From positions 1-38,791 of IMG/VR virus record IMGVR_UViG_3300023210_000092: 38,791 bases of DNA, one strand, 5' to 3'. Below, piece by piece: positions 4,086 through 36,146 of this stretch. The notes under the pieces are model-generated. The model was given only the letters and a program-made list of their open reading frames with translations. It searched no databases and had not been told where the DNA came from. Source of the DNA: a virus. Numbering within the stretch: the first letter of the stretch is position 1; each line of letters starts with the position of its first letter. The position numbers and the translations under genes are program-made.

Positions 4086-4349
4086 TTATTTGTTTAGATA
4101 TCTTCTTTTGTTTTGTTCTTGAATTTTTATTCTATCTATGGTTTTTTTTAAAACCTTTACCCCTCCCTCAACCCTATATATATCTTGTTTTACTTTTTTT
4201 TGAGAAATTTTGAAACAATTATAACAAACTTTTGCGTGGGGTGTTCTTTTGATTACATTTTCTTTTATTGGGTGTCCGCAAATCGTACACTTTTTACTTG
4301 AAAGTATTTTATAGTCTACTTTCTTTTGACTTTTCTTTTCTTGTGTCAT
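4086..4349 (-). CDS. Small zinc-finger protein, DksA/TraR-type C4 finger
   Basis: 87 aa, strongly basic. Residues about 21-45 form a C4 finger spaced as in DksA/TraR proteins: CTICGHPI, 13 residues, then CYNC, with an Ala-x-x-Cys step (HAKVCYNC). DksA/TraR proteins bind RNA polymerase near the secondary channel, but this protein lacks an obvious long coiled-coil tip with acidic residues. A general nucleic-acid-binding ribbon is equally possible. The C-terminus is Lys/Arg-rich (IQEQNKRRYLNK). Confidence 0.6.
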   Translation of the reverse strand: MTQEKKSQKKVDYKILSSKKCTICGHPIKENVIKRTPHAKVCYNCFKISQKKVKQDIYRVEGGVKVLKKTIDRIKIQEQNKRRYLNK

Positions 4350-4393: not shown

Positions 4394-4462
4394 CTATACT
4401 TGTCGAACTTGGTTTTTTAAATTAAACAAATCTTTCAACTTTCCAGTCTTCATTTTGTTCAT
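4394..4462 (-). CDS. Possible 22-aa microprotein
   Basis: A short frame starts at an ATG overlapping the upstream stop (ATGA) and encodes a basic peptide (MNKMKTGKLKDLFNLK then NQVRQV). It lies in a 109-nt gap before the zinc-finger gene. The coupled start is the only support; the length makes a chance frame plausible. Confidence 0.3.
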   Translation of the reverse strand: MNKMKTGKLKDLFNLKNQVRQV

Positions 4463-4668
4463 TCTTTAAAATCATTCCAGTGTTCTTTTAAATAATCCCA
4501 ATTTATGTTTCTTCTCTTTGCATAATACATATCAAACACACTACCTCTTATGTGATTTGCAAGTTCTTGGTTTTTTTCATGCAAATAGTTGAAGACAAGT
4601 TGGCCAAACCTCCACCCGTGCAGTCCATCTACTAAATGAACGTGTTTTACAAACTCTTCAAACTTCAT
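4459..4668 (-). CDS. Conserved phage small protein, 69 aa
   Basis: Pattern fits a family of short phage proteins of unknown function: a tract like RFGQLVFNYL followed by ELANHIRGSVFDMYY and a final aromatic-rich helix. The family resemblance is from memory of similar phage sequences and is not decisive. Soluble, no cysteine. It lies between two overlapping small genes and a possible coupled microprotein. Confidence 0.6.
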   Translation of the reverse strand: MKFEEFVKHVHLVDGLHGWRFGQLVFNYLHEKNQELANHIRGSVFDMYYAKRRNINWDYLKEHWNDFKE

Positions 4669-6409: not shown

Positions 6410-7240
6410 TCAATAATTTTTAATTAATAATTCTTTTACCTTCCCCCGTTTTGATCCATCCGAATTAATAGACCTTTTTGCCAAAACCTGATTTACATCA
6501 TAGTCTTTGTATAAGTCTAATATAAAGTCAGTTGCAGAATTAGACAGTAAAAACTTAACGCCTTTTTTTGTTAGGTTGTCACACACGGATTTTAAATGTT
6601 TTTGGTCACCCCTGTTAAAACCTCCTTTGGTATAAGCAGTAAAGTTTTTTGCACCTTCGGGGACATCATACGGGGGGTCAAAATAAACAAAATCATCCTT
6701 TTGGGCACTTTTTAATGATACCTCAAAACTTCCGCAATTAGTGGTAATATCATTATTGTTCAAATACGTGTTAACTGCGTTAAGTGTTTCAGTGTCAACA
6801 ATTTTAGGGTTGTCGCAATAACCAAATGGTGAATTAAATTGGCCCTTACTGTTGACTCTATATAGGCCGTTAAAACAGGTTTTGTTCAAATAGATGAATC
6901 TAGCAGCTTTTGCTGTGCTGGTTAATATATTGAACGTACGTTCATTTCTATCTAAACATCTAACCTTGTAAAACATTTCTTTTGTGTTTTTGCAGCTTTT
7001 TAATTGATCTGTCAAGCTGAGTCTATTGTACTTTATGGAGGCATAACAATCAATCAACCCTTCATTAAGATCGTTAATAACGGCCTTTTTGGGCTGTATG
7101 TGGAACAAAACAGCTCCACCGCCTAAGAAGGGTTCAAAATAAGTATTGAAGCTCTCAGGGAGCAGCTTTTCAATGTTTTTCAAAAGCTGTCTTTTACCTC
7201 CAACCCATTTTACAAACGGTTTTAAATTATGGTTTTTCAT
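6410..7240 (-). CDS. dam: DNA adenine methyltransferase, D12 class (Dam-like)
   Basis: 276 aa, the usual length for D12 N6-adenine methyltransferases. N-terminal PFVKWVGGKRQLL (9-21) and YFEPFLGGGAV (34-44) form the SAM-binding part, INDLNEGLI follows, and YFDPPYD (about residues 186-192) is the catalytic DPPY motif. This pattern is Dam-like. The target site cannot be read from sequence. It overlaps the Cys-rich 125-aa gene upstream by 14 nt and shares its promoter (7626-7657). With no restriction partner nearby it is probably an anti-restriction or regulatory methylase. Confidence 0.9.
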   Translation of the reverse strand: MKNHNLKPFVKWVGGKRQLLKNIEKLLPESFNTYFEPFLGGGAVLFHIQPKKAVINDLNEGLIDCYASIKYNRLSLTDQLKSCKNTKEMFYKVRCLDRNERTFNILTSTAKAARFIYLNKTCFNGLYRVNSKGQFNSPFGYCDNPKIVDTETLNAVNTYLNNNDITTNCGSFEVSLKSAQKDDFVYFDPPYDVPEGAKNFTAYTKGGFNRGDQKHLKSVCDNLTKKGVKFLLSNSATDFILDLYKDYDVNQVLAKRSINSDGSKRGKVKELLIKNY

Positions 7241-7604
7241 AAGTAATGCCTTTTTCTGTTAATATTTTCCTCATGTGTTTTGCCCGGTTTTTGAAAGCCA
7301 GTTTTAGTTCTTGTGATGTTTCAGCTCCCTTGATGGCGCAATAAGTTTCCACATTGCCATGACTGTTGCAATAGGCTATAGTATCTGTATCTCCTCTATA
7401 GACGCAAGAAGCACAATTGGGAAACTTAGCTCCAGCGGTAAAAACTGCCTTGCACAATGTACAAGTGTCCATTGATCCGAAGCCCGTGAGTAGATGTGCA
7501 ATTTGATCGACATAAGGACACTCTATAAAAGCTGTCCTTATATCCTCTAAGGTTATGCTTTCATATTTTAATATCAAAGCTTTAAATTCTTTTAAGTTTT
7601 TCAT
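7227..7604 (-). CDS. Hypothetical Cys-rich protein, 125 aa
   Basis: Unrecognised. First gene of a promoter-led unit with the Dam-like methylase. The middle holds CTLC, then CASC, then two more single Cys and a His, compatible with one or two metal sites. Flanking regions are helical and charged. It overlaps the methylase start by 14 nt. The pairing with a methylase suggests a linked role but the sequence gives no reaction. Confidence 0.65.
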   Translation of the reverse strand: MKNLKEFKALILKYESITLEDIRTAFIECPYVDQIAHLLTGFGSMDTCTLCKAVFTAGAKFPNCASCVYRGDTDTIAYCNSHGNVETYCAIKGAETSQELKLAFKNRAKHMRKILTEKGITYEKP

Positions 7605-7625: not shown

Positions 7626-7657
7626 CAAAGATATAACAAAAAAATCAGAAAAACAAA
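7626..7657 (-). promoter_or_regulatory. Bacteroidetes-type promoter for the 7604 gene and Dam-like methylase
   Basis: Minus strand reads TTTG, 20 nt, TATCTTTG, an exact consensus match, with the -7 box 22 nt from the ATG at 7604. The upstream TTTG box overlaps the base of the terminator hairpin at 7656-7683, a compact end-of-unit/start-of-unit arrangement. Confidence 0.8.
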
Positions 7658-7683: not shown

Positions 7684-8923
7684 AACGAATTTTAACAATA
7701 TTGAATCTTTCATACATTTTTGAAGCTGGTTTTGCATCATATTGATCCAAATCAGTTTGTATAGGATAACCATCCACATTATCAGTGTTTTGTAATTCTA
7801 TTCTAACATTGTTGATAGTTCCATTTTCTTTTACAATATGCATGTTTTGAGAGGCCTTAGAGTTTAAATCAAGCGCAAAGGTACTATATGTATTTTCTCC
7901 AACTAAAGAGCCACTACGGGCGAATATATCACCAATATTTGCAAAATGGATATGTCCAAACAGCACAAAATCAATAGTTATTCCTTTGCTTGAATATTTT
8001 CCTATTATTTTTTGGATATTGGCTTGTGTTGCTTGTCCTAACGATGCTCCATGTGTGAGGAGAATGTTTTTGCTGTTCACACAAATTATTGTCTCAACCG
8101 GGTTTGTGTCTATGAATTTTACACAATCCGAATTTTTAAAAACCAGATTTAACATGTTGAAAATTACAGAATCATAATTGTCCGTAACGACCATATTTGT
8201 AAACCCATACTCAAAGGCTCTTGATTCATTACCGGTCACATACACAACATCCATTTGATCACATGCTTCCATCAAATCTTGAATGAAATATTGGATTAAA
8301 TTAGTTGCTATCATTGCGGCTGTCATCCTATTTGTAGACATATTCAACTTCTCATCAAGCCTTCTGTCTGAGTTAATTAGGTCTCCTGTCATCGCAAAAA
8401 TAACCTTCTTGATATTGTATGACTTTAGCTGTTTTTTGATCTCTAAGGCGTACAGGGCCATTCTTTTACTAGCTATATCAAAATCATACCTATTGCCCTC
8501 TAAATCAACCAATTCATTGAAATGAGTATCTGATAATTGAACTATAGCTTGATTTCCACTTAATGAGAGGTTGGGCTGAATTGTTTTTTTGATTTTCCAA
8601 TTGATTTTGTCAAACTCTTCTACAACAGCCTTGTTTAGATTGGTTATAACGTTCTCTAACCGTGCGTGGCTCCTAAACGCTTTTCTTTCGATCCTGTTAC
8701 TGTCCTGATACTCTTGCTTTTCCTTAGCCAATCTAACATTTTCCACAAGAACTTCGTTTGTAAAAATCTGTTTTAGGCTATCAGGATTGTCAAACATAGC
8801 CTTATATACCTCGGCATGACGAAAGGATATGTCCAACGATTTCATTATACGCCTAACGGTAACTTTTTTTGTTATTTTTAGATCTTTTATTTTCTCAAAA
8901 TCTTCTTTGTTTATTATTCTCAT
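7682..8923 (-). CDS. Calcineurin-like metallophosphoesterase
   Basis: 413 aa. The N-terminal 115 residues are charged and helical with a possible HTH-like start (VTVRRIMKSLDISFRHAEVY). The phosphoesterase core follows: LSDTHF (D132, H134), MTGDLI, VTGNES, LLTHG and FGHIHFA. These are metal-binding motifs of the Mre11/calcineurin-like superfamily, except that GNES replaces the usual GNH(D/E), so one metal/catalytic His is missing. Without a detected SbcC partner beside it, this is a second phosphoesterase distinct from the SbcD-like one at 25.4-26.4 kb. Its substrate could be nucleic acid or nucleotide. Its stop overlaps a terminator. Confidence 0.8.
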   Translation of the reverse strand: MRIINKEDFEKIKDLKITKKVTVRRIMKSLDISFRHAEVYKAMFDNPDSLKQIFTNEVLVENVRLAKEKQEYQDSNRIERKAFRSHARLENVITNLNKAVVEEFDKINWKIKKTIQPNLSLSGNQAIVQLSDTHFNELVDLEGNRYDFDIASKRMALYALEIKKQLKSYNIKKVIFAMTGDLINSDRRLDEKLNMSTNRMTAAMIATNLIQYFIQDLMEACDQMDVVYVTGNESRAFEYGFTNMVVTDNYDSVIFNMLNLVFKNSDCVKFIDTNPVETIICVNSKNILLTHGASLGQATQANIQKIIGKYSSKGITIDFVLFGHIHFANIGDIFARSGSLVGENTYSTFALDLNSKASQNMHIVKENGTINNVRIELQNTDNVDGYPIQTDLDQYDAKPASKMYERFNIVKIR

Positions 8924-20036: not shown

Positions 20037-20609
20037 TTAAACATTTAATTTTTTCCTCAAATATTCACAAATTAGGTAGGCGTCAACCTTGTTATCATCT
20101 TCTGTTTTTGCCCTCTCCGTTTTTTTAAAATCCAGTTTTGGATTAAGTGCTTTTGCAACCATTATCGAGGTCGCTTTTGTATCGTTAACCATAGTTTTGC
20201 CCGTGGAGGATGGTTTCTTGATTTTTTCAAAACCCTTATACATAACCGATTGCCATTTTTGAGGTCTTACCATCTCAATTTTTGCACCTAATATTATAGC
20301 AACCATTTTCTGTAAACCTGCTACGTGCCCAAAGTTGAAATTATTCTGAGCTGACCAACCTTCTCTTCCGTGAACATCTTCAATAGCTGCGTGAAGTTCG
20401 TAGGATTTGAATTTATAATGAATTTCGTAAATAAGGGGTTTAAAACCTTCTTCATGAAATACAGATTTCATTTGTGGTTTTCCGCTTTTTAAAAATTCTC
20501 CAGATCCAACCTTGTGATAGGGCATCGGGTAGAAAGTGTATTCACCTTCTGCGTAAACGCAAAAAAAACCGGATTTCCCCGGGTCTATTCCTATTATTGC
20601 TTTTTTCAT
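20037..20609 (-). CDS. RuvC-like Holliday-junction resolvase
   Basis: 190 aa. RNase H-fold acids are visible in order: D9 in IIGIDPGKSGFF, E77 in AAIEDVHG, and a C-terminal DDNKVDAYLI pair (D172, D176). FNFGHVAGLQ in the middle matches the RuvC-type central helix. It would cut branched intermediates made by RecA-driven recombination before packaging. It directly follows the nucleotidyltransferase gene (17-nt gap). Confidence 0.82.
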   Translation of the reverse strand: MKKAIIGIDPGKSGFFCVYAEGEYTFYPMPYHKVGSGEFLKSGKPQMKSVFHEEGFKPLIYEIHYKFKSYELHAAIEDVHGREGWSAQNNFNFGHVAGLQKMVAIILGAKIEMVRPQKWQSVMYKGFEKIKKPSSTGKTMVNDTKATSIMVAKALNPKLDFKKTERAKTEDDNKVDAYLICEYLRKKLNV

Positions 20610-20626: not shown

Positions 20627-21583
20627 TTATGCAAATAAATCTTTTAATTGTGTTGATGATTCAGATTTAATGTTGTCAGAATCTCCGTCGTATTGACTAA
20701 AGACCTTATCTATCAGACTATTAATGTACCTAGATGTAATTTTCTTCTTGTCTACGTTTCTAAGTGCATCTATCAACATTGAAAAATACGCAACATCGAC
20801 ACCAATTAACTGATCCTCCAGTACTTCTATATCAGTAAGGTCAAGCTCTGACACTTGAAACAATATTTTCAAAATCTCACCTGCACTCATTGTCCATCCT
20901 CTACGGATGAACTTTTTCATTCTGATTACAGAAGTTAGTGGGTATAGAGATCCTTGATAAACTAAGTTCTTAGTAATCAAGCTCTCAAGGGCAGCTTGAT
21001 TTAAAATCAAACCATCTTGAAATGTAAAATAATTAGTTGCATGTATATAATCAAATGTCTTGTGGATTTGTTCAACGTTTCCATTGAACCTTAGAACTAT
21101 TTGAACATCTTCTGTTAGTGAAATTGCATTTTGAGAAATGAACACAGGTAAGTATTTTTCGTCTTCTTTTCGCTCAATTCTCACACCAGCTCCACTTACA
21201 TCAATCTTGATTTGATTTGGCTTTAAGTTAGAGATTCTAACATATGCTTCAGAAGAATATCTTTCATTTTTTCCTGATTCTGGATTGTCCCAAAACCCCG
21301 ATTCAGGGATTTTTGGAAATCTTTTTTCTAAATATTCGCCCCTAAGTCTGCCATCCAAAACATCGCCAGGCTTATAGTATTCAGCTAAACGCTTCAAGAC
21401 GTCCATATTTTGAATATAAACATCATAGTCGTTTACTTGCTCCTTCAGTAGCATTGAAGCAATCGATCCGCCCGAAATTAAAATGTTTTTCTTAACATCT
21501 CCTCTTAGTGTTTTGTCTGCAATGGTCTCTAGCCATTCATTCATCTTTTTAGTGATGATTTTTGCAATTGTTTTTGTTTTCAT
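20627..21583 (-). CDS. Nucleotidyltransferase-fold protein, 318 aa
   Basis: The Pol-beta-type nucleotidyltransferase signature is clear: GGS (38-40), 11 residues, then D52-Y-D54 followed by VYI (hG[GS]x9-13DhDh). IKIDVSGAG may hold the third acidic strand. The rest is helical with EQIHKTFDYIHATNYFTF, a pattern I recall from other phage proteins annotated this way. Such proteins add nucleotides to RNA, protein or small molecules; the substrate here is unknown. It lies directly downstream of the structured non-coding region at 21584-22067, which makes that RNA a candidate partner (inference). Confidence 0.7.
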   Translation of the reverse strand: MKTKTIAKIITKKMNEWLETIADKTLRGDVKKNILISGGSIASMLLKEQVNDYDVYIQNMDVLKRLAEYYKPGDVLDGRLRGEYLEKRFPKIPESGFWDNPESGKNERYSSEAYVRISNLKPNQIKIDVSGAGVRIERKEDEKYLPVFISQNAISLTEDVQIVLRFNGNVEQIHKTFDYIHATNYFTFQDGLILNQAALESLITKNLVYQGSLYPLTSVIRMKKFIRRGWTMSAGEILKILFQVSELDLTDIEVLEDQLIGVDVAYFSMLIDALRNVDKKKITSRYINSLIDKVFSQYDGDSDNIKSESSTQLKDLFA

Positions 21584-21619
21584 ATGTAAATAAGTTTAAA
21601 AGTTAAAAATAATAATTAG

Positions 21620-21707
21620 TCAGGTATTAGGGATTCCAACCCATAAACTTAGTTCTTGCTGTTAAGTAGCAGACCAATGACCTTTTTGAGGCTCATTGTA
21701 TACCTGA
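21620..21707 (-). ncRNA. Candidate tRNA-like cloverleaf RNA
   Basis: 88 nt on the minus strand. Ends TCAGGTAT and ATACCTGA pair over 8 bp. Inside are a hairpin with CAATGA/TCATTG plus CCT/AGG (9 bp, one bulge), a hairpin TCT-GCT/AGC-a-AGA with a 7-nt loop ACTTAAC, and GGG-TTGGAAT-CCC placed exactly where a T-arm would be. The acceptor and T-arm geometry are tRNA-like. However, U33 is C, the T-loop has G for the conserved C, and the T-stem is only 3 bp, so I do not call it a functional tRNA. Confidence 0.4.
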
Positions 21708-21797
21708 TGTTTAAATAAAATATATTTAAGGCATCTCACCTCTTTTACTTTGTAGTAAGTGTGAATGTTTACTAACTTAGTTTAAATCTATCTAATT

Positions 21798-21834
21798 AAT
21801 ATTTCTCTGCCAAAATCATAGAATCCGAAATATT
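21798..21834 (-). other. 8-bp stem-loop in the non-coding region
   Basis: AATATTTC and GAAATATT pair exactly around 21 nt. It lies between the two multibranched structures and adds to the evidence that the region is selected for structure, though A/U-rich pairs this short can occur by chance. Confidence 0.35.
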
Positions 21835-21925
21835 TAAAGTTCTTCTGTGATATTTCTAGAATATCTAGATAAATCTAGTTTAATTATAATTTAAAAGATT
21901 GTCCCAAGATTTCAATGCTTAGGAA

Positions 21926-21990
21926 GTTTTGTAATTGTTTGCCTTGCTAGCAAGGTCTTATTTTAAGGGAGTTCTACCCACCTACAAAAC
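21926..21990 (-). ncRNA. Candidate structured RNA, 65 nt, two internal hairpins
   Basis: GTTTTGTA and TACAAAAC close the structure with 8 bp. Inside are GGG-TAGAACT-CCC and CCTTG-CTAG-CAAGG. The closing stem length and the GGG-N7-CCC arm echo the 21620-21707 element, suggesting two related units. No tRNA-like anticodon arm. Confidence 0.35.
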
Positions 21991-22067
21991 CCTCTATCGT
22001 AATTAAATTGAAATGTATTAAATCGCTGTGCCTAATACCAATTACTTTAAAGCAATCTTGTTTTTAT

Positions 22068-22220
22068 TCAATTCAATTGCTTAGTCAAATCAAAGCCTGT
22101 GTTGTCTTTCAAAACTTTAATTCTTTTTCTGAAAAAATTCATCTTTATTTTACTGATTGCGGCAGTGTTCTTGTTAACGTAATCAGTAAAAGATTTTATT
22201 GTCTTGTTAGGCTTTTTCAT
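22068..22220 (-). CDS. Small basic protein, 50 aa
   Basis: An ATG-started frame 28 nt from a strong promoter encodes a Lys/Asn-rich peptide (MKKPNKTIKSFTDYVNKNTA onward) with a central basic helix (FFRKRIKVLK). It is the only coding frame between the SbcC-like gene and the non-coding region. The promoter fit and composition like its neighbours support it. The high positive charge suggests nucleic-acid binding, perhaps to the RNA structures encoded just downstream (inference). Confidence 0.6.
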   Translation of the reverse strand: MKKPNKTIKSFTDYVNKNTAAISKIKMNFFRKRIKVLKDNTGFDLTKQLN

Positions 22221-22247: not shown

Positions 22248-22279
22248 CAAAGATATGACAAAAAACAATACGATCCAAA
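22248..22279 (-). promoter_or_regulatory. Bacteroidetes-type promoter leading into the non-coding region
   Basis: Minus strand reads TTTG, 20 nt, TATCTTTG, an exact consensus match just after the SbcC-like gene stop. It drives the 50-aa gene, the structured region and probably the nucleotidyltransferase and RuvC genes. Confidence 0.8.
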
Positions 22280-22280
22280 T

Positions 22281-24434
22281 TTATTTTTCAATTCTACTAA
22301 CATTATTCTCTTTTACGATCAAAATCCTGTCGCTATTTGCCTCTTCGTCAGTCACATGTGTAATAATCATTACTGCAACATTTAATTTTTTTGCAGCTTC
22401 GATTGTGTGTTTTAAGATCAAAGAATCTGCACCTTCAAGTACTTCATCAATGCTTAAGAAATCTAACCCTCCATAGGGATGTGTTTCATTGATCATGTGT
22501 CTATTGGTTAATATAGAAGTGAATAATAAAATACTCTTTTCGCCTCCGCTGAAGGAGTCAAATGTTCTTTCTATGTCCCTAATTACCTTTGCAGTGATTT
22601 CTTCCTTAATTGTGCCGTCAGCTCTGACTTTGAATCCATCCATCTTGATACTAATATCAGAACCCATACCTTCTAAGTACCTATTGAAATGATATCCAAT
22701 CACTTCCAAAGACTGATTTGCTAAAAACATACGGAATTGCTTAAAGTTGTTTGACCATTGATTTCTATCGTAGATTTGATCCGCAACTTTTGAAAGCTCT
22801 GATTTGTTCAAACTTTGATTTTTCTCCAGTTTTGTTAAATCGATTTTTAATTCAGCTATAACCTTTTTATTATTACCTACTTTTAAATTATTGATTTCTT
22901 TGTTTAGATCTTCTATCTTGGTTTTGAAATTCTCGATTTGCGAATCAAGGATTTTGCAATTATCGTTTCTGTTCTCGATTTTTGTGCTCAAGTCGTTCAT
23001 ATTGGCTTCTAGCGTATCAATATCTCTGTCGCAATCTTTTAACTCATTCTTAAGGCGTTCAAGTTTTTTTTCTACCTTTCTTAGTTTTTTATCAACTTTA
23101 TTGCAGGCGATTATTAATAATTGTTTTTCTTCATTTTCTTTTTGTTCTTTTTTGTTGATATTCGAAACACTTGATTCTACGGTGGATAGGTTTGTTTTTA
23201 TTTCATCTATTGCGTTCATAGATTTTAGAACCAATTCTTCAACCTTTGGTTTTATTTGAACCGCTTCTTTTTTCTTTTTTCTAACCTTTTCAATATCTTC
23301 ATCAAGTAAGAACTCATGCGAACATTTTGGACAAACTATTGAACCATCCATTTTCAAGCTAACCTGCTCTATAAGATTGATTAGTTGAGATTCTTTTGAT
23401 TCGTAGTTTTTTAATGTTCTTTTCTCTTCTTTTAATTTTTTACTGTGTTTTTCTGAATCAGAATTGAAATCTTTTCTTTTATCATCCCAGTTTGTCAAAA
23501 CAAAGCTTTCTACTAGGTTTTTAGCCGTTTTAAGCTCTTCTTCTACGCTTTTGACATTGTCACATATAGAAACAATTTCAACCTCTATGTCGGCCTTGTT
23601 TGCGTTTTCTTGCCTAATCTTTTCTTCTTTGTTTTTGATCTTTATGAAGGAGGATTTATTTTTTTCTTTTTCTACCTGTTGAATCTGTTTAGTGTCAAAT
23701 ATACCTTCTTCGATTAACTCTATATTCTCCTGAAGTTCAGAAATGCTTTCTTTTAACTCATTTTTGAAATCCCGGTTTTTCTCTCTATCAATTTGCTCAT
23801 TTACTTGATTTATAGCACCTTCTGTTTTGTTGACTTTTGTTTCAAGTTTTTTGTAATCCTCATCAAGATGCTCTGTATCAATGTTTTCCAAACCTTCTAT
23901 TATGCTTGCATCAGAAAACCTGTTAATCAAATCTACTTTTTCTTTATTAGAGGAAGAAAAAAATGATTTAAAACGTTTTTTTGAAACCAAATAATAATTA
24001 AACAAATCATCCTTAGAAATAGCTAACCATGTATCTATATATTTTTTACCGTCTGCAACTCCTGAAACGTTAACCTTTTCCCATTTTTTTGATCCGTATT
24101 CCTGAATTTTTAGAGTCAAAACATTTGAACCATTCCTGTTTATAATCCACTGGATTTTCAAAACCCGTTTTCTAAAATCGCAGGAGATAAATAGTTGAAC
24201 TTCAGCTTTTTGTTTTCCGTATGTGATTAATTCAATATCTCTAACCCCTCTACTATTTGTTCCTGTTATGGAAAATTCAATAGCTGTTTGTATACCAGAT
24301 TTCCCTGAACCACAAGATTTTTGATTGTCATCCGTAAAATTTAAACCTTGTACTTGTATAGGTTTTTGGGGAAAATCGTAATCAAGATAGTCGTATGACA
24401 AAAAGTCTTTAAGAATAAGTTTGTCTATTTTCAT
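22281..24434 (-). CDS. SbcC/Rad50/gp46-like recombination ATPase
   Basis: 717 aa. N-terminal DFLSYDYLDYDF and Walker A CGSGKSG (GSGKS 42-46), about 500 residues of charged coiled coil split by a zinc-hook CPKC at 368-371, then the ABC signature FSGGEKS (628-634) and Walker B LDFLSIDE (657-664), with a MIITHVTD His-switch. It acts with the SbcD-like nuclease to process DNA ends for recombination. It follows RecA by 4 nt in the order SSB, SbcD, RecA, SbcC. ATG at 24434. Length fits phage gp46 better than the longer bacterial SbcC. Confidence 0.92.
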   Translation of the reverse strand: MKIDKLILKDFLSYDYLDYDFPQKPIQVQGLNFTDDNQKSCGSGKSGIQTAIEFSITGTNSRGVRDIELITYGKQKAEVQLFISCDFRKRVLKIQWIINRNGSNVLTLKIQEYGSKKWEKVNVSGVADGKKYIDTWLAISKDDLFNYYLVSKKRFKSFFSSSNKEKVDLINRFSDASIIEGLENIDTEHLDEDYKKLETKVNKTEGAINQVNEQIDREKNRDFKNELKESISELQENIELIEEGIFDTKQIQQVEKEKNKSSFIKIKNKEEKIRQENANKADIEVEIVSICDNVKSVEEELKTAKNLVESFVLTNWDDKRKDFNSDSEKHSKKLKEEKRTLKNYESKESQLINLIEQVSLKMDGSIVCPKCSHEFLLDEDIEKVRKKKKEAVQIKPKVEELVLKSMNAIDEIKTNLSTVESSVSNINKKEQKENEEKQLLIIACNKVDKKLRKVEKKLERLKNELKDCDRDIDTLEANMNDLSTKIENRNDNCKILDSQIENFKTKIEDLNKEINNLKVGNNKKVIAELKIDLTKLEKNQSLNKSELSKVADQIYDRNQWSNNFKQFRMFLANQSLEVIGYHFNRYLEGMGSDISIKMDGFKVRADGTIKEEITAKVIRDIERTFDSFSGGEKSILLFTSILTNRHMINETHPYGGLDFLSIDEVLEGADSLILKHTIEAAKKLNVAVMIITHVTDEEANSDRILIVKENNVSRIEK

Positions 24435-27604: not shown

Positions 27605-27884
27605 GAACTTTTATTTTTGATTCAATTTCTTCTAATAGCTCTTTGTTATATTCTTTGTACTTTTCAAGAAAATCCTGTAAATAAAGAATATCTTCACCTG
27701 TTTTCATTCTATCCTGAACTATAATATCTATAGCTTTTTCAATCTTGACACCCCAAGCAATATTTGTTTCAACTATTTTTTCTTCACCTGTCTTTTTTGA
27801 TTTTGAAAGGTGTTCTTTGTATACGTCAAAACATTTTACTCCAAGACTGTCTTTTATGATATAATCTATTACTTTTATTGTCAT
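27570..27884 (-). CDS. Hypothetical protein, 104 aa (possibly DUF5405-like)
   Basis: The first half has a pattern I associate with DUF5405-type phage proteins: strands around LGVKCFDVYKEHLSK, a turn, TNIAWGVKIEKAIDIIVQDRM. The second half is helical and charged. Its start overlaps the stop of the methyltransferase relic (ATGA), implying it was once coupled to the intact methyltransferase. Function unknown. Confidence 0.55.
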   Translation of the reverse strand: MTIKVIDYIIKDSLGVKCFDVYKEHLSKSKKTGEEKIVETNIAWGVKIEKAIDIIVQDRMKTGEDILYLQDFLEKYKEYNKELLEEIESKIKVHVQHGKNRRLD

Positions 27885-28290
27885 TTTTCCATATTTTTTA
27901 AAATGTGAGCAATAACATCAACTGTCCAGCCGTTCCCTAGCATTCTGTATCGTTGAGAATCACTAACGCCTTCTGTGTAATTATCTGGAACGGTTTGAAG
28001 TCTTTCAAATTCGATAGGTGTTAATTTTCGAAATTTCCTACAAGCCTCTTTAAATTTGGGATGATTTAGGCCAAATTGAGACAATATACACTGTATCTTT
28101 TTATCTAACTCTTCAAATCTATAGTAATCTTTCCTAACCTATTGCCAGTGTCTTCTGGATAGTTTTTATCTGCTATTCGTATTGCGTACTTATCTATTTC
28201 AGAACTATAATAATTATCAACTTTTACCCCTGTCCTTTCTAAAGCTATTCTTCCGCCACTCAATCCGTCAAATAAACTTAGTATGTTCAT
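27881..28290 (-). pseudogene. Gutted C5-cytosine methyltransferase
   Basis: The 5' part (28290 down to about 28130) encodes motif I and II sequences (LSLFDGLSGGRIALERTG, then SSEIDKYAIRIADKNYPEDT). The 3' part, in another frame (about 28150 to 27881), encodes KLTPIEFERLQTVPDNYT and SQRYRMLGNGWTVDVI (motifs IX-X). All central motifs, including the catalytic PCQ, ENV and QNRxR, are missing, and the pieces are out of frame. The 3' part closely resembles the intact enzyme at 35091-36146 in both protein and DNA. It is a deletion relic; a peptide from either part could still be made but not an active enzyme. Confidence 0.85.
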
Positions 28291-34958: not shown

Positions 34959-35090
34959 ATCTTTATTTTTAATGTAATTGAATATTAAAAGTTAAACATA
35001 TTTTATTATAAATTAAGTCTATAGCTAACCAATATTTATAAACGGTTGACTTTTAAAACTATTGTGTCAGCGATTTTTTGCAAAAGTTTT

Positions 35091-36146
35091 TCATAATTCC
35101 ATATTTTTCAAAATGTGAGCAATAATATCTACCGTCCAACCGTTTCCTAACATTTTGTATCGTTGAGAGTTTGAAACGTGATTTGTGTAATTATCTGAAA
35201 CGGTTTGCAAGCGTTCACATTCTAACGGCGTTATATATCTATAATGCTTACCTTCTTCAAGTTCCTTATAGACATCTGGATATCTACCTTTCTGTAAAAC
35301 ACTTACAACGTTATTTTTTCGTACAGTGGTTAGACAATTCATTTTATTCCCCCCTCGCACCTCCAAACATTGAGTTAATTTCAAATTTTTATTATAATCT
35401 TCTCTTTTTTTTTGTTCGTTCAATCTTCTGCCTACTATACAAGCAGGTTGATCCACTATGCCAAAAAATCTTTGAGAGCTATATTTCTTGTGATGACTAG
35501 CTTCCAGCATTTGCATTTTTTCAAAATCCTGATGCACCTTTAACTTTTTTCCGTTTTTTGTTCCATGTCTGCCTATCCAGTCCATAGCCTTGTCTGTATA
35601 ATACATTGAACCCCACTCTACACCGTGCTCTCGAACATCCCCCCAAGCAACCCCCTTATCCTTTGGCTGTTCTACATTGGGAATGTTGGTCCAGTATAAT
35701 CGTTTTCTATTTTGGGCACTGACTAAATCGCTGTTTATCTCTATAGGTTCAACTCCCAGCATTTTTGAAATAATGTCTTGGGGCTCTTGTTTCATTTTTA
35801 CGTTTTCTAGAAGGAAATATTTAGGATTTGTTTCATCTTTTAGCCTGATGAAATCAAAAAATAGTTTACTTCTAGGATCATTGAAATTTAGCTGTTTGCC
35901 AGCAAAACTAAACCCCTGACAGGGACTTCCCCCTACCAATAAATCTATTTTTTTCAACTCTTTTCCCTTAACTTTCCTTATATCTCCAAGCTGGATTGTG
36001 TCGGAATAATTGGCATTATTGACTATGTTTGCATATTTGTCTATTTCGATAGAATAACGCTTATTAACTTTTATATTTTCTCTGTCTAACGCTAACCATA
36101 TACAGCCCATGCCATTAAAAGCGCTCACTACATTTATGTTTTTCAT
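35091..36146 (-). CDS. DNA (cytosine-5) methyltransferase
   Basis: 351 aa. Complete motif set: VVSAFNGMGC (I), IEIDKYAN (II), VGGSPCQGFSFAGK (IV, catalytic Cys76), FLLENVKM (VI, 114-118 region), AQNRKRLYW (VIII), TPLECERLQTVSDNYT (IX) and SQRYKMLGNGWTVDII (X). It resembles the short DNMT3-like enzymes of phages. No restriction enzyme lies nearby, so anti-restriction or DNA marking is likely. Its 3' end is closely similar in DNA to the gutted copy at 27881-28290. Confidence 0.95.
   Translation of the reverse strand: MKNINVVSAFNGMGCIWLALDRENIKVNKRYSIEIDKYANIVNNANYSDTIQLGDIRKVKGKELKKIDLLVGGSPCQGFSFAGKQLNFNDPRSKLFFDFIRLKDETNPKYFLLENVKMKQEPQDIISKMLGVEPIEINSDLVSAQNRKRLYWTNIPNVEQPKDKGVAWGDVREHGVEWGSMYYTDKAMDWIGRHGTKNGKKLKVHQDFEKMQMLEASHHKKYSSQRFFGIVDQPACIVGRRLNEQKKREDYNKNLKLTQCLEVRGGNKMNCLTTVRKNNVVSVLQKGRYPDVYKELEEGKHYRYITPLECERLQTVSDNYTNHVSNSQRYKMLGNGWTVDIIAHILKNMEL

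Follow-up and report, generated by a model that had tools for sequence, protein, structure and literature searches.

The acceptor/T-arm helix of tRNA is read by RNase P, RNase Z, the CCA-adding enzyme and EF-Tu, and in mitochondria tRNAs punctuate the transcripts. The term tRNA punctuation is also found in PMC8003010. The elements described below resemble the mitochondrial arrangement in that the genome is compact and tRNA-shaped elements immediately precede coding sequences; they differ in that they belong to phages and are non-decoding, and their processing is a prediction. Another system for comparison is tmRNA, to which phage phiST and one IMG/VR relative come close by carrying a large insert between the D- and T-arm regions. 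However, no tag reading frame, pseudoknots or tmRNA call was found, and the copy in the window is short. A search of the open-access literature gave no description of a class of phage tRNA-like leader elements, and the class is apparently undescribed.

The locus and its gene-free spacer

The window, that is, the whole stretch of DNA analysed, is a 38.8-kb viral record from a virus of marine bacteria. Its genes, almost all on the minus strand, include those for RecA, SbcCD, a RuvC-type resolvase, an SNF2 helicase, a DnaE-type polymerase and ribonucleotide reductase. Among isolates, Cellulophaga phage phiST and Tenacibaculum phage Larrie, of the genus Cbastvirus, come nearest; no near relative was found, the RecA matches in IMG/VR being only ~58–67% identical. 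Two synteny anchors frame the locus (Table 1). In phiST and L024, RuvC directly follows SbcC, and in other relatives the interval is filled by differing genes. We therefore regard the segment made up of the small ORF, the spacer and the nucleotidyltransferase (NTase) as an insertion at a turnover spot.

Two side observations concern the gene map. A TTG-started 67-aa frame at 27881–28084 of the window resembles, by eye, the C-terminus of a Dcm-type cytosine methyltransferase and is a possible remnant or split gene. In phiST, 3.8 kb without an annotated gene (L065 5727–9548) stand where relatives encode the polymerase, and possibly hold an unannotated or interrupted gene.

Table 1. Features of the spacer locus and its flanks, in window coordinates.
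Feature	Coordinates	Strand	Remarks
SbcC-like gene	22281–24434	−	upstream synteny anchor
Bacteroidota-type promoter	22248–22279	−	perfect consensus match, TTTG-N20-TATCTTTG
50-aa lysine-rich ORF	22068–22220	−	homologue not found
Gene-free spacer, 484 nt	21584–22067	−	longest gap in window
Branched structure, 65 nt	21926–21990	−	closed by GUUUUGUA/UACAAAAC; z −1.0, energy unexceptional
tRNA-like element	21616–21706	−	body 86 nt 21621–21706, discriminator A 21620, trailer CUAA 21616–21619
Acceptor stem, 5′ strand CAGGUAU	21700–21706	−	closing stem and model alignment
Acceptor stem, 3′ strand AUACCUG	21621–21627	−	closing stem and model alignment
T-arm AUGGG-UUGGAAU-CCCUA, 17 nt	21628–21644	−	inner 3 bp paired
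Pol-beta nucleotidyltransferase, phrog_4400	20627–21583	−	class II CCA-adding/poly(A)-polymerase fold (predicted)
Holliday junction resolvase	20037–20609	−	downstream synteny anchor

A previous sequence-only reading had described a consensus promoter, a very basic 50-aa protein, 484 nt without coding capacity and, within these, two branched structures, each with a perfect 8-bp closing stem. All four are present. The Bacteroidota promoter consensus is TTTG/TANNTTTG (PMC6847099); the window contains 8 matches to it where 3.3 would be expected. TATCTTTG also stands at 565 and at 7626, each time on the strand of the promoter and in another intergenic gap. The protein is basic and rich in lysine, and no relative of it was detectable. 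As a separate observation, its ORF contains an inverted repeat (22148–22191) with 14-nt arms, 93% complementary, whose hairpin (z −3.3) exceeds every structure in the spacer. The spacer itself has no credible ORFs, and the next-longest gaps of the window measure 220, 197 and 191 nt. The closing stems are GTTTTGTA at 21990/21926 and TCAGGTAT at 21707/21620.

The further impression that the 484 nt are unusually structured is not borne out, the folding energy being ordinary for this genome. Thus, its minimum free energy has a z of −1.9 to −2.4, as low as which are 11 of the 64 stretches of equal length tested on this strand, and the best 120-nt window within the region ranks no higher than 76th among 967 sliding windows. 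Stems of at least 8 bp number nine, against 4.6 ± 2.4 in shuffles, and those which also have at least three GC pairs number two, against 0.5 ± 0.6. Of the structures in the spacer, only the 3′ element (21620–21707) stands up. It accounts for part of the spacer; ~350 nt lie outside.

Homology searches with the spacer gave nothing by blastn in phages except AT-rich promoter matches (E about 9), nothing in the gaps of relatives and nothing with a single-sequence model (R1). No known Rfam family exceeded its gathering threshold, and a group I intron, riboswitch, tmRNA or other Rfam RNA was rejected since E ≤ 10 yielded chance matches only. A decayed gene was likewise rejected, the stop-free segments having no match among the genes of relatives.

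A tRNA-like element ahead of the nucleotidyltransferase

The 3′ element shares with tRNA genes (RF00005) a 7-bp acceptor stem and a T-arm of exactly 17 nt, both in exact tRNA register, together with a T-loop, UUGGAAU, that departs from UUCRANY by a single difference, G for C at position 56. Folded alone, 21620–21707 forms a three-hairpin cloverleaf of −23.6 kcal/mol (z −2.5). Unlike tRNA genes, however, it has only three of five T-stem pairs, the two outer ones being mismatched, and a D-loop without GG; sought as an ordinary tRNA, it gives no ARAGORN match and no RF00005 match at E ≤ 10. The trailer, A-CUAA at 21620–21616, fits the N73-CUAA or N73-CAA trailer of the class described below, and its end lies 32 nt from the ATG of the NTase (21583), inside the ~45 nt to a start codon that the class allows.

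In the fold of the full 484 nt, the acceptor stem has a probability of ~0.2 and competes with a 9-bp pairing of 22031–22039 with 21623–21631. A 417-nt tmRNA-like RNA built on this rival pairing was considered and rejected: the pairing may be due to chance, the T-stem is left with 3 nt and the D-arm is absent. The GC-stemmed cloverleaf shape occurred in none of 4000 local shuffles, the descriptor being post hoc. Another match to the cloverleaf descriptor, at 21793–21886, is AT-rich, has no T-loop resemblance and was discarded. A loose scan of 250 kb for tRNA geometry returned three matches, namely the window element and two tRNA-like elements of relatives; its descriptor was tuned after the site was known, and the scan alone is only suggestive because shuffles predict ~0.6 matches in the window.

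Covariance models were built from three sequences (R2) and from eight elements of relatives, with the window left out (R3). Over the 38.8 kb, both strands, R3 ranks the window element first with 21.5 bits and an E-value of 0.013, and the next match scores 12.8; the E-values are approximate, to within about fivefold. Limited to 741 nt around the site, the search gives E 0.00025. With the earlier, smaller R2, the element came only third (10.1 bits, E 3.2). The R3 score is partly non-independent, because the CUAA columns entered the models once their resemblance to the window sequence was known. R3 was also run on eight phage records that have an NTase and no tRNAs, and found no matches at E ≤ 0.2. 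The T-loop reads UUCGA in all eight R3 sequences versus UUGGA in the window element; UUCGA is shared by the model sequences and lies outside the class definition used, and on account of this difference the window element is a probable, not a certain, member of the class.

The trailer was also assessed in IMG/VR, with a pattern of T-arm, ACTAA and ATG. Among the matches listed, 94 of 132 stood at exact tRNA register versus 2 of 119 with a scrambled trailer; it is on this register distribution, not on raw counts, that the test rests. ORF proximity was built into the pattern, was similar in the control and is excluded as evidence. Because ordinary tRNAs make up many of the ACTAA-pattern matches, CUAA is a mark of phage tRNAs as well as of tRNA-like elements.

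tRNA-like elements in related phages

The Cbastvirus-group relatives hold ~15 tRNA-like elements in total, located by RF00005 at a relaxed threshold and then by R2, and most well-covered records of the group have them. Acceptor stem and T-arm are retained, often the D-arm too, but the anticodon domain has been resized or enlarged or has gone altogether. In contrast to tRNA genes, a usable anticodon loop is absent; loops of 5, 6, 6, 8 and 9 nt were seen. In Larrie 4446–4511 the domain is a GAAA mini-arm, in one relative's copy it is a single central hairpin, and phiST 35045–35119 is reduced to a minihelix of acceptor and T-arm. Nekkels and phiST (4181–4348) have a ~110-nt insert, in which a hairpin reads UCG...CGG in phiST versus CCA...UGG in Nekkels, a compensatory change noted by eye. 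At Larrie 66205–66390 (L066 5710–5891) there are two T-arms, one nested within the acceptor stem of the other.

The elements lie before genes. Most copies are 1–41 nt away from the ORF start that follows, and two are 70–83 nt away; the Larrie 66205 element sits 23 nt before the ORF of DNA polymerase III alpha (DnaE), and that of G023 at +16 before SbcC. Three copies were found in Larrie, whose genome paper reports no tRNA (PMC10013915), and the one at 21137 has no ORF nearby.

Over the eight elements of relatives, 91% of cells are paired, against 64% when shuffled and 43–50% when slid, in an alignment that was fitted to the model and hence leans towards the structure, the slid control being far lower nonetheless. 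Both sides have changed in all seven acceptor pairs and in three of five T-stem pairs, and double changes occur in 12 of 15 pairs. Compensatory changes have thus preserved the acceptor stem and T-arm in elements whose anticodon domain varies or is missing, so the class cannot be maintained for decoding and is under selection for something else. No close relative with the spacer was found, so the covariation is known from the relatives' elements and not from the window site. The sequence-only reading had looked to related phages for covariation; it is there in these elements, whereas the two multibranched structures, as drawn, show none.

Several further loci are worth recording, and the first of them counts in favour of the class. 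Phages phi10:1 and phi19:1 have the same flanking sequence as phiST around one of its elements, but not the element itself: the promoter TAAATTTG is joined directly to the ORF start. This is a clean presence/absence (L068 1595–1762 versus L070 and L071) between a promoter and an ORF common to different Cellulophaga phage genera, and on this comparison the phiST element looks mobile. L032 has at 6735–7592 ~850 nt without coding capacity, with G+C above the surroundings and a T-arm and acceptor at the end, which is possibly a large tRNA-like RNA, followed at 7735–7912 by a ~170-nt element of the same tRNA-like kind; neither has an Rfam match. Finally, a ~110-nt non-coding element, AAGGCATC...GACCTTTAA, 93% identical between L028 (581–859) and L029 (4740–4934), lies upstream of a phrog_19605 gene, and L027 has a similar motif.

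The nucleotidyltransferase and the weighing of explanations

The enzyme is of the Pol-beta type, as had been proposed, with a GGS...DYD motif and a predicted CCA-adding/poly(A)-polymerase fold. Its AlphaFold2 model (pLDDT 80.8, from a 13-sequence alignment) gave in Foldseek significant PDB matches that are all of the CCA-adding or bacterial poly(A) polymerase type (E 2.9e-4 to 9.6e-4, TM ~0.33), the best being 3aqm, 4wc2 and 5hc9 (E 3e-4 to 4e-4). We take 3aqm/3aql to be poly(A) polymerase, the PDB entry being titled only 'bacterial protein'. Because the significant matches are of that type only, the NTase is a divergent class II nucleotidyltransferase. Fold and motif are those of class II tRNA nucleotidyltransferases and poly(A) polymerases; it differs from them in having no sequence match in Pfam or PDB, in the low TM and in belonging to phrog_4400, a function-unassigned phage family.

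The sequence-only reading had tentatively taken microprotein, structured RNAs and NTase for parts of a single RNA-based system, with the RNA ends being modified by the NTase. The predicted fold would suit this idea, as would a tRNA-like element without encoded CCA directly upstream of the NTase, and Larrie has NTase and tRNA-like elements both. That reading had, however, itself named relatives which keep the NTase and lack the structured region as evidence against the link, and such relatives are what we found: the spacer is absent in 18 of 18 NTase loci examined (upstream gaps −35 to 111 nt), several of which are near-duplicates, so that the independent cases are fewer. NTase relatives lie elsewhere in the genome, with an unrelated gene nearly always adjoining them on the upstream side, and that of Larrie is ~18 kb from the SbcC–RuvC interval. 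Moreover, no NTase was detected in phiST though it has the elements, NTase-bearing records without elements are common, and the 50-aa ORF has no relatives. The NTase and the 50-aa ORF are thus not linked to the tRNA-like RNA. We consider the three-part system very improbable; what survives of the proposal is one structured RNA in the spacer that is probably genuine, and an NTase whose fold is shared with enzymes working on the 3′ ends of tRNA.

What, then, is the element? We would call it an even bet that the functional core of the spacer is a diverged, non-decoding tRNA-like leader element before the NTase start, of the Cbastvirus-group class and perhaps a processing signal. The window copy is the weakest of the set, with the poorest T-arm, and in the full spacer its acceptor stem is one of several competing folds, so it may be a decayed copy. 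It is rather unlikely that the spacer is leftover sequence around a decayed, formerly decoding tRNA gene. The long variable region and a UAA in the loop do suggest a leucine type, the D- and T-arms are degenerate beside an intact acceptor stem, and among the phages compared those of other genera have intact tRNAs. Yet decay is at odds with the compensatory changes by which relatives keep acceptor and T-arm, leaving the anticodon domain free to vary, and with a position consistently just ahead of start codons. We think it improbable that there is no functional RNA and that a leader or gene-turnover remnant between SbcC and RuvC has taken a tRNA-like shape by chance. The ordinary folding energy would agree with such a remnant, as would a turnover spot holding different genes or none in each relative, but the E-values of the held-out model, over genome and region alike, argue against it, as does the cloverleaf's absence from the shuffles, with its post hoc descriptor.

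Returning to the non-decoding leader element, selection for acceptor and T-arm without decoding and the recurrent place before start codons point to recognition by enzymes that read this helix. In the transcript, the helix would be recognised by tRNA-processing enzymes: RNase P would act at the 5′ side of the element and RNase Z or exonucleases at its 3′ side, and the element might set or protect the 5′ end of the mRNA that follows. Transcription, processing and an effect on NTase expression are what we infer for the window copy. The simplest reading is that the transcript is processed in cis, and decoy or end-cap roles are possible.

As a wider proposal, which we offer tentatively, flavobacterial phages might use non-decoding tRNA mimics as mobile cis-elements ahead of genes, with host tRNA maturation cutting, capping or stabilising their mRNAs, and the window copy, ahead of a gene for an NTase that resembles CCA-adding enzymes, would be a diverged example. 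Standard tools overlook such elements or report them as unusual tRNAs. Should they be processing signals, phages would punctuate their mRNAs with tRNA mimics; should they be decoys or end caps, they would have a bearing on tRNA-targeting defence and on mRNA stability in Bacteroidota, a group whose translation signals are unusual.
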